Shown here: positions 21,626 to 23,795 of the stretch, one piece after another | Layout: every line of letters begins with the position of its first letter | How positions within the stretch are numbered: position 1 is the first letter of the stretch | Origin: a virus | Direction: 5' to 3' (one strand) | DNA: 26,789 nucleotides | IMG/VR virus record: IMGVR_UViG_3300025840_000205 | Location: 1-26,789 of that record | The notes under the pieces: generated by a model | Seen by the model: the letters and a program-made list of their open reading frames with translations, nothing else | What the model was told of the DNA's origin: nothing | Databases searched by the model: none | Translations under genes and position numbers: made by a program

Positions 21626-21636
21626 AATTGAAGTAT

Positions 21637-21960
21637 TTACGATTTTATTTTGTAGTCCAAAAAGTTCCGCACCTCAGCGGCGTCTTCGGGGGTGAGCTTT
21701 TGAACCATCTGCGCTGACCGCTCCATCTCTTCCTGGGTGCCGTTGATACGGGCATCCTCAATCAGCATTAGCCAGGGCGGCACCTCAAGCGCCGCTGCGA
21801 TCTTCTCTACAATGGCTATTGATGTACTACGTTCTGCTCTAAGCATTGCGCCTATAAGGCTCTGCGATACGCCAGACATCTTATGAAGGCGGTAGGCCGT
21901 TAAGCCTTTTTCTTCCATCAGGTGGCGTAGGTTGTCCCTGAAAATCTCGTTGGTGTTCAT
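21637..21960 (-). CDS. CI-like repressor, short form without protease domain
   Basis: This 107-residue DNA-binding protein has an N-terminal HTH (about 7-63: 'LRHLMEEKGLTAYRLHKMSGVSQSLIGAML...VEKIAAALEVPPWLML'). About 40 polar helical residues follow, probably for dimer formation. Lambda/P22 CI-type repressors are about twice as long and carry a LexA-like self-cleaving domain that is absent here, so RecA-stimulated cleavage cannot inactivate it. It is divergent from a Cro-like paralogue that aligns without gaps. The start ATG is preceded by AGGGCGAAAG. No terminator is seen between it and the leftward operon. Confidence 0.8.
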   Translation of the reverse strand: MNTNEIFRDNLRHLMEEKGLTAYRLHKMSGVSQSLIGAMLRAERSTSIAIVEKIAAALEVPPWLMLIEDARINGTQEEMERSAQMVQKLTPEDAAEVRNFLDYKIKS

Positions 21961-22008
21961 CTTTCGCCCTGGAGTTCTGCTCCTGTTATTGAAGGTATGA
22001 AGTATACG

Positions 22009-22058: not shown

Positions 22059-22087
22059 TTGCATACTTCAAAAGCGGGGTGTACGAT
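22059..22087 (+). promoter_or_regulatory. Early rightward promoter (PR-like)
   Basis: TTGCAT (22059-22064), a 17-bp spacer and TACGAT (22082-22087) form a candidate promoter for the Cro-like gene and replication genes, starting near 22094. Its -35 box mirrors that of the repressor promoter: GTACGCAA (22030-22037) and TTGCATAC (22059-22066) form a near-perfect inverted repeat around 21 AT-rich bases. Confidence 0.5.
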
Positions 22088-22117
22088 TCGTTCTCAGGTT
22101 TGAAGTAGGAATTTGCT

Positions 22118-22342
22118 ATGAGCTTGAACGAGGTACTGCGGCAGAACCTTCGCGCAGAAATGGATCGGCAGGGCATGAGCGCCTACCGCCTGTCAAAGTT
22201 GACCGGCGTTTCACAGTCGCTGATTGGCAAGGTTTTACGAGGCGAAGGTGGCAGCAGCCTCGCCACTGTCGAAAACCTTTCATTCGGCCTGAACAAGAAG
22301 CCACACCAGTTGCTGATGCAGCGCCCAGGTGTGGTTGCATGA
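22118..22342 (+). CDS. Cro-like HTH repressor, paralogue of the CI-like protein
   Basis: This is a 74-residue HTH protein, first gene of the rightward operon, starting at ATG behind GTAGGAATTTGCT. It aligns without gaps to residues 1-67 of the divergent CI-like protein: 'LRQNLRAEMDRQGMSAYRLSKLTGVSQSLIGKVLRGEGGSS'. Residues 30-37 (GVSQSLIG), at the turn and recognition helix, are identical in the two, so they should read the same operators. It lacks the C-terminal extension of the CI-like protein. By position it should shut down the repressor promoter and favour lytic growth. Confidence 0.8.
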   Translation: MSLNEVLRQNLRAEMDRQGMSAYRLSKLTGVSQSLIGKVLRGEGGSSLATVENLSFGLNKKPHQLLMQRPGVVA

Positions 22343-22355
22343 GATCCCCAATGTG

Positions 22356-22388
22356 TTGCGGCTTTGAAATCGGCGGGGCCGCAATTTT
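22356..22388 (+). terminator. First of two tandem hairpins after the Cro-like gene
   Basis: TTGCGGC (22356-22362) pairs with GCCGCAA (22378-22384) to form a 7-bp stem with a 15-nt loop followed by TTTT. It is a weaker terminator than the next hairpin. A competing stem, GGGGC (22375-22379) with GCCCC (22389-22393), would disrupt both hairpins. Confidence 0.5.
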
Positions 22389-22389
22389 G

Positions 22390-22415
22390 CCCCTCGTTCG
22401 CGGGGGGATTTTTTT
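22390..22415 (+). terminator. Intrinsic terminator abutting the initiator gene
   Basis: CCCC (22390-22393) pairs with GGGG (22402-22405), with an inner CG pair around GTTC, followed by A and seven T residues (22409-22415) ending right at the next ATG. It is placed like lambda tR1, between cro and the replication genes. Its 3' arm GGGGGG (22402-22407) is also the only ribosome site of the next gene. Confidence 0.8.
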
Positions 22416-23051
22416 ATGATCCATCGAGCGCCCAGATCGCAGTCGTTCACGATCCTGAACACTGCCACTTTCAACCTGCCTATCCCTGCCGATGAGCTTG
22501 GGGTTTACCTGCACCTGCTGTCGAAGCCTGATGACTGGTCAGTCAACGGCGTTTACCTCGCCAAGCACTTCGGGATGTCCAAGGACAAGACTTATCGAAT
22601 CCTGAACAACCTGTGCGAGAGAGAGTCCGGCGGGGTCAAGCTGGTCACGAAGAAGTCGTACCGCAATGAACGTGGTCAGATGGCAACGGACTACATCGTA
22701 CAAGAACCCAGTCCTGAAAATCAGGACCGGTCCGGTCCTGAAAAACCGGAACCGGAAAATCAGGACGTACAAAGTATTGAATTACTTAATCATCATCAAT
22801 GGCGTCCAGATGATGTTCTGGAGCAACAGCTCAAACTCCTGCGGCTGACATACACCGAAGAAGAACTGATCCACTTCCAAGTGGAGCTTTCTGAAAACAC
22901 ACGAAAACGACACAGACCAGGGTCGGCGTTCATCACCTGGTTGAAAAGCGAACGAGGATTCAAGGAGAAGCAACGTGGAACAAGTGAACCCGCAAAGAGC
23001 AGTAGCAACGGCCCAACAGCCAAAGAACTTCTCACAGACTTCAACTGGTGA
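22416..23051 (+). CDS. O-like replication initiator with internal origin
   Basis: This 211-residue protein has an N-terminal winged helix (about 25-95): 'ADELGVYLHLLSKPDDWSVNGVYLAKHFGMSKDKTYRILNNL'. A low-complexity E/P/Q/N linker follows (about 97-125), then a helical C-terminal part 'LRLTYTEEELIHFQVELSENTRKRH...AFITWLKSERGF' that recalls phage replication proteins of the DnaT/O kind. The linker is encoded by the iteron-like repeats at 22711-22766. It starts at ATG 22416, with GGGGGG eight bases before, inside the terminator hairpin. The next gene is a P-like loader, as in lambda O-P. Confidence 0.75.
   Translation: MIHRAPRSQSFTILNTATFNLPIPADELGVYLHLLSKPDDWSVNGVYLAKHFGMSKDKTYRILNNLCERESGGVKLVTKKSYRNERGQMATDYIVQEPSPENQDRSGPEKPEPENQDVQSIELLNHHQWRPDDVLEQQLKLLRLTYTEEELIHFQVELSENTRKRHRPGSAFITWLKSERGFKEKQRGTSEPAKSSSNGPTAKELLTDFNW
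22711..22800 (+). other. Putative replication origin: inverted-repeat iterons plus AT-rich tract
   Basis: GTCCTGA and TCAGGAC alternate four times: 22711-22717, 22721-22727, 22735-22741 and 22760-22766. The first pair forms a 17-bp palindrome, GTCCTGA-AAA-TCAGGAC. A 10-bp palindrome GGACCGGTCC (22724-22733) joins it to the second pair. The next 34 bases (22767-22800) are about three-quarters A+T. Iterons with dyad symmetry followed by an AT-rich stretch inside the initiator gene is the lambda ori plan. Confidence 0.7.
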
Positions 23052-23379
23052 CCAGGAAACGATCAACGCATTGTTCGCCACGATCAAGGTTGCCTACCCG
23101 AACTTTATGTCCAAGCAAAATCAGGACATTGGCTCGATCAAGCGCATGTGGCTGCTGCACCTGGGTGGATACGCAAGGGAGAAGATCGAGGAAGCTGCAA
23201 GGCTGATGGTTGATCGCTACCCGACATTTGCCCCTACCCTGGGTGAGTTCAAGAAGCTGATCGCTGAGATCAACCAGGCGAAACCAGCGCACAAGGAATA
23301 CATCGCGCTGCCCAGGCCGGAAGCAGATCCCAGCATTGCCAGGATGGAGCTGGGCAAGATGAAGGCGCTGCTTTCATGA
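22975..23379 (+). CDS. P-like helicase loader
   Basis: This 134-residue protein starts at GTG 22975 behind AAGGAG and overlaps the initiator gene by 77 bases. The segment 'INALFATIKVAYPNFMSK...IKRMWLLHLGGYAREKIEEAARLMVDRYPTFAPTLGEFKKLI' matches the pattern of the N-terminal part of phage replication protein P (Phage_lambda_P family), which brings host DnaB helicase to the origin. It is about half the length of lambda P (233), so only part of that protein is represented. The adjacent initiator and origin support the role. Confidence 0.7.
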   Translation: MEQVNPQRAVATAQQPKNFSQTSTGDQETINALFATIKVAYPNFMSKQNQDIGSIKRMWLLHLGGYAREKIEEAARLMVDRYPTFAPTLGEFKKLIAEINQAKPAHKEYIALPRPEADPSIARMELGKMKALLS

Positions 23380-23795
23380 AGTGCGTCGTCAGGATCGAGA
23401 ACGGCATCGCGTACCCAGACACGGACGCCACGGCCGATTGGATGATGAACGCCAGCGACCGGACATACGCCGTCGACTTCAAGCCTGCCAGGTCACCCCA
23501 GTACCACCGGTATGCCATGAAGATGCTCAGGATCATGTTCGACATGACAGACGAGACAATCGGATTTGAACCCTGGCGCAAGATGCTGACCGTCAAGGCC
23601 GGTTACTTCACCAGCGTTGGCAAGGTCGACGTGAAGGGTACGACCAGCGTGGCAGTGATACCTGACTCACTCGCATTCGAGAACATGGACCAGGACGAAT
23701 TCAGAACCTGCTGGGGAGACATGCACCAGGCCTTCGTCGACAAGTACGGCAAGTCACTGACGAACGCCCAGCTCAACGAGTGGAGCGTGATGTGA
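23376..23795 (+). CDS. DUF1367-like phage protein
   Basis: This 139-residue protein starts in an ATGA overlap with the helicase-loader gene. The pattern 'RSPQYHRYAMKMLRIMFD...FEPWRKMLTVKAGYF' followed by 'VIPDSLAFENMDQDEFRTCW' is what I know from DUF1367, a family common between replication and lysis genes of lambdoid phages. Its biochemical role is unknown to me. There is no signal peptide or membrane segment. Confidence 0.65.
   Translation: MKCVVRIENGIAYPDTDATADWMMNASDRTYAVDFKPARSPQYHRYAMKMLRIMFDMTDETIGFEPWRKMLTVKAGYFTSVGKVDVKGTTSVAVIPDSLAFENMDQDEFRTCWGDMHQAFVDKYGKSLTNAQLNEWSVM

Follow-up and report, generated by a model that had tools for sequence, protein, structure and literature searches.

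In phage lambda, the nutR-tR1 region comes right after cro, between cro and cII and ahead of the replication genes. In the E. coli pyrBI operon, a short ORF (pyrL) runs through an intrinsic terminator placed just before the next gene, and a ribosome that follows closely can prevent termination (PMC5021804, PMC10135430); in vitro, termination at pyrL was lowered by a coupled ribosome (PMC10135430). For the tR2 hairpin, termination fell from about 90% to less than 10% when a ribosome stopped no more than a few nt from it, but was not cut when the stop was more than about 27-30 nt distant; ribosomes that started on an ORF had little effect on a terminator lying within its first 100 nt (PMC4824070). 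Unfolding of the RNA by an upstream ribosome is an accepted model of translational coupling (review, PMC12548453).

The window, which is the whole stretch of 26,789 nt that was analysed, comes from a temperate phage (IMG/VR record IMGVR_UViG_3300025840_000205), and the site under study is the 73 nt separating the stop codon of a cro-like gene from the ATG of an O-like gene. As in pyrBI, an ORF crosses a terminator-type hairpin and ends at the start of the next gene (22339-22419, and 2332-2421 in a related phage, L003, described below). By analogy, pyrL is the closest precedent for the arrangement proposed here, in which a single hairpin opened by ribosomes would gate both the transcription and the translation of O. 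The locus differs from pyrBI in that the ORF follows a full gene, cro, via an ATGA overlap, whereas pyrL is the first ORF of its transcript. Moreover, the leader between the cro stop and the hairpin is not U-rich (28-29% T, versus a template given as 49% U-requiring for pyrL, PMC10135430), the 3' arm of the terminator is the Shine-Dalgarno of the next gene, and regulation by UTP is not suggested. As in translational coupling by RNA unfolding (PMC12548453), translation of the upstream ORF would unfold a downstream ribosome site, but the hairpin at this locus resembles a transcription terminator as well.

The immunity region of the phage looks lambda-like. A CI-like repressor is encoded on the minus strand (21637-21960). 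On the plus strand, the cro-like gene (22118-22342, 74 aa, HTH_3 match), whose last codons also hold the start of the small ORF, is followed by the O-like replication initiator gene (22416-23051, 211 aa, HTH_36, with weak matches to phage replication initiators and DnaD-like loaders) and by a P-like helicase loader gene (22975-23379, phrog_109 P-like helicase loader). A NinB-like protein is encoded at 23376-23795, and the left part of the window holds Erf-like, RecE-like, SSB and integrase genes. Operator-like copies of TTGAAGTA / TACTTCAA were seen flanking the CI-like gene and upstream of cro (21628-21636, 21998-22005, 22063-22071 and 22099-22107), and are probably the repressor operators. 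Iteron-like direct and inverted repeats are found inside the O-like gene (22702-22766 in the window, 2666-2773 in L003), as expected for a lambda-type origin within O; their sequences differ between the two phages. In both phages, 77 nt are shared by the O and P-like genes, which read them in different frames (22975-23051 in the window, 3001-3077 in L003), and the P-like gene of the window starts with a GTG codon.

Two tandem stems had been proposed 3' of the cro gene, and their letters and coordinates were confirmed. Stem 1, on the plus strand, pairs 22355-22366 with 22374-22385 (12 pairs, -16.2 kcal/mol) and is followed by TTTT. The second hairpin, on the same strand, pairs 22390-22396 with 22401-22407 around a UUCG loop (7 pairs, -11.4 to -12.7 kcal/mol), and is followed by A22408, by seven T residues (22409-22415), and immediately by the ATG of O (22416-22418). 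Together the two hairpins form the dominant RNAfold structure of segment 22353-22416, in which the pairs of the second one have probabilities of 0.94-0.99. Only 0.75% of dinucleotide shuffles folded as stably as this two-stem segment (0.25% for L003); over the wider stretch 22340-22440 (101 nt), stability was not unusual. The second stem had been taken for a good terminator whose T-run touches the ATG, and its G+C-rich hairpin with a T-run directly behind it, conserved in L003, agrees with this. Judged by its sequence, the hairpin is very likely a real terminator. Stem 1, whose TTTT is present in both phages, could act as a pause hairpin that holds ribosome and polymerase together. No known riboswitch or RNA thermometer was found, as the window matched none of the Rfam models at their gathering thresholds.

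The 3' arm of this terminator (GGGGGG, 22402-22407, plus strand) is also the Shine-Dalgarno of the O-like gene, and forms a duplex of -9.4 kcal/mol with the anti-Shine-Dalgarno. The sole other in-frame start within 200 nt is the ATG at 22575, with a score of +0.1, so that the arm is, as the sequence-only reading had it, the only good Shine-Dalgarno of O. In both the window and L003 this site lies entirely within the 3' arm. Since a terminator-type hairpin contains the ribosome site of O, opening it would plausibly affect termination and O translation alike, which was a further claim of that reading and is in line with the compensatory changes found in one relative (below). One hairpin would then form a double gate. 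That such a gate may serve commitment to replication is a fair reading of its position, with O and P coming after cro.

When viral contigs and genomes were searched for relatives, the matches were the same phage once more, L003, L004 (a partial contig that shares the P-like match), remote repressors of Cro type in other settings, and unrelated sites where a hairpin precedes an ATG. No close relative turned up in the collections of phages and plasmids, and two distant replication-gene matches, when inspected, had gene orders without an adjacent cro annotation. One distinct related phage was therefore available, L003 (IMG/VR UViG_3300025889_000407), whose CI-like, Cro and P-like proteins are 60%, 66% and 80% identical to those of the window. 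The cro-O gap of L003 contains both stems and ATTTTTTTATG in the same place. All of the 8 pairs compared in stem 1 are standard in both phages, 3 of them being changed on both sides; likewise, all 7 pairs of the terminator are standard in both, with 2 changed on both sides. Overall, 5 of 15 pairs are compensatory and none is broken. The O protein of L003 is, on the other hand, strongly different: its BLASTP alignment covers residues 44-211, at 30%, and its N-terminal half is divergent. Because the stems are conserved while O and its repeats differ, the terminator and its lock on the ribosome site appear from the comparison to have stayed with cro, the N-terminal part of O and the repeats having diverged or been exchanged.

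The sequence-only reading had overlooked a small ORF of 26 codons (MRSPMCCGFEIGGAAILPLVRGGIFL, 22339-22419, plus strand) that bridges the cro-O gap and would provide a less exotic means of opening the hairpin, namely a ribosome in the course of translation. Its ATG overlaps the cro stop (ATGA, 22339-22342), its TGA overlaps the O start (ATGA, 22416-22419), and it runs in another frame across both stems. The same chain is present in L003, where the ORF has 29 codons, keeps ATGA at both ends and differs in length by 9 nt, in frame. The other junctions compared in the two operons all overlap, by 4, 16 or 77 nt (77 for O-P, 4 for P and the next gene), so that the small ORF closes the sole gap, that between cro and O. 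The ORF being open says little in itself, because 81-87% of shuffled spacers remained open once the right frame was given. The peptide shows little conservation, and the ORF has a weak Shine-Dalgarno (-4.1 in the window, -6.0 in L003). The case for a bridge thus lies in the two ATGA ends and the right frame, which were retained despite the 9-nt change of length. The end of cro (22301-22335) can also fold, CCACACC with GGUGUGG, covering this weak Shine-Dalgarno, and cro translation might thus be needed in one more respect.

An alternative is that the terminator behind cro is an ordinary one, leaky in part, and reduces by a fixed factor the transcription that reaches the replication genes, the overlap with the ribosome site of O reflecting genome compaction and the ORF being incidental. 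The small ORF could indeed be open by chance, and terminator-like hairpins whose T-run meets the ATG of a plausible gene turn up repeatedly in viral contigs that are unrelated; most of those listed lack a bridging ORF. A pattern scan of viral contigs (CCCC..GGGG..ATTTTTTTATG) gave at least 119 stretches. Among the matches listed, an ORF of 100 aa or more starts at 24 of the 75 distinct sites, versus 14% of TTTATG controls from the same loci. Of 29 stretches with ATGA, again among those listed, the window phage and L003 alone show an ORF that links the stop of the upstream gene to the ATG; this contrast is suggestive and not strong, because many of the other stretches are AT-rich, with frequent stops. 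From these sequences, the terminator-on-start layout thus appears recurrent in phages, the bridge at the cro-O junction being the unusual part. As a recurrent layout, it is open to testing in bulk. Nothing of this kind was described for phages in the titles and abstracts of the literature, covered in part, which does not prove novelty. The listed matches with T7 on the ATG of a gene of at least 100 aa (within L012-L139) amount to 24 different starts, spread over a diversity of viral contigs, and several of these sites follow a TAAATA string resembling a T4-type late promoter.

What a merely leaky terminator does not account for is that the ATGA ends and the correct frame were kept in two phages through a change of 9 nt, nor that the strong Shine-Dalgarno of O is buried in the stem in both. 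We therefore regard the leaky terminator as the less likely reading, although a sizeable possibility, and favour a pyrBI-like hairpin opened by ribosomes and gating O twice, because the stems covary, the Shine-Dalgarno is buried and the ATGA-bounded ORF chain is present in both phages. On the evidence of these two distinct phages, it is the best single explanation, at a little under even confidence. It was ranked ahead of the leaky terminator, which came in turn before the antitermination target considered below.

According to the favoured explanation, the intrinsic terminator at the cro-O junction of this lambda-like temperate phage would stop most transcripts before O, and the transcripts that read through would still carry the O start closed in the hairpin. 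Ribosomes finishing cro would re-initiate on the small ORF at the overlapping ATGA, a handover suggested by that overlap. A ribosome on the small ORF would then cross the hairpin region close behind RNA polymerase, suppressing the hairpin, and would start again on O at the second ATGA. The replication genes would in this way need active translation of the cro transcript for their expression, as in the pyrBI attenuator. We infer from the sequences the termination, the translation of the small ORF, the coupling of ribosome and polymerase and the role in replication commitment. The distances are consistent with the need for a bridge: the cro stop is 47 nt from the hairpin in the window and 52 nt in L003, so that translation of cro by itself should not prevent termination. 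In the window just 51 nt separate the start of the small ORF from the hairpin, and the effect would therefore hinge on an efficient handover from cro.

The more specific proposition that, within a phage immunity region, the small ORF chained between cro and O makes O transcription and translation alike depend on ribosomes moving along with the polymerase, replication starting only when translation keeps pace, is put forward tentatively and may well not hold. If true, one hairpin would be two gates on phage replication, with a 26-codon ORF as the key to both, and the entry of a temperate phage into replication would be tied, without any protein, to the translational state of its host.

The position of the hairpin also recalls lambda. 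As with nutR-tR1, a terminator directly 3' of cro would limit the expression of the replication genes, and this position, together with the lambda-like immunity region, would suit a terminator of the tR1 kind that a phage factor or RNA for antitermination (N-, Q- or put-like) overcomes, with O translated from the read-through RNA. Unlike in lambda, the intrinsic hairpin with its T7 adjoins the O-like gene itself. Scanning the plus strand of the window, and the early leaders, for an exact boxA gave no match, a search that diverged nut sites would escape; the early left and right leaders have in common just short operator-like or chance strings; and the proteins scanned, a subset of the ORFs, gave no match to an antitermination family. 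Neither a cII-like gene nor a nut site nor an N-like protein was found by the exact boxA scan and among the proteins scanned. From the leaders and proteins scanned, a tR1-like target of antitermination, which may work through an unfamiliar factor, is considered unlikely, less so than the attenuator discussed next.

The sequence-only reading had further described a third stem, GGGGC (22375-22379) with GCCCC (22389-22393), excluding both others and making the site an attenuator with mutually exclusive folds. The letters are present on the plus strand (22375-22393) and the pairing would exclude the two other stems, but support for it as a regulatory fold was not obtained. Its predicted probability was at most 0.03 in intact transcripts. 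When spacers were shuffled, 81.5% (window) and 65% (L003) paired with the 5' arm of the terminator at least as stably; as G and C runs give equally stable partners in shuffles, the third stem is best seen as a chance product. In L003 its middle pair is a C-C mismatch, and a different pairing of similar energy is found instead. These observations speak against the attenuator with mutually exclusive folds, which we judge highly improbable.

This applies equally to its trp-type form, in which a ribosome or a factor on the 5' arm of stem 1 would free GGGGC to pair with GCCCC and so block the terminator. The three stems do have the 1:2, 2:3 and 3:4 topology of a trp-type attenuator, with a short ORF over segment 1, and with the 5' arm of stem 1 masked the third stem exceeded a probability of 0.9 in nascent RNA ending at 22393-22396. 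It yields to the terminator, however, once 22407 is out, and unlike in trp-type attenuators the 2:3 helix is neither conserved nor above chance. The 5' arm of stem 1 carries the Cys-Cys-Gly codons of the small ORF; these segment 1 codons are not conserved, the ORF of the window having Cys-Cys and that of L003 a single Cys (two sequences compared). If the gate opened by ribosomes is right, it would also be a caution to look for overlapping reading frames before hairpins of this kind are called switch-like folds.

A fourth pairing, of UCCCC (22345-22349) with the 3' arm of the terminator, was considered and rejected: it reached a probability of 0.76 only in RNAs running from 22340 to near the ATG, and was minor (0.001-0.32) once cro or O sequence was included. 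The UCCCCAA string recurs in L003, in another phase of the ORF and with a shorter helix.
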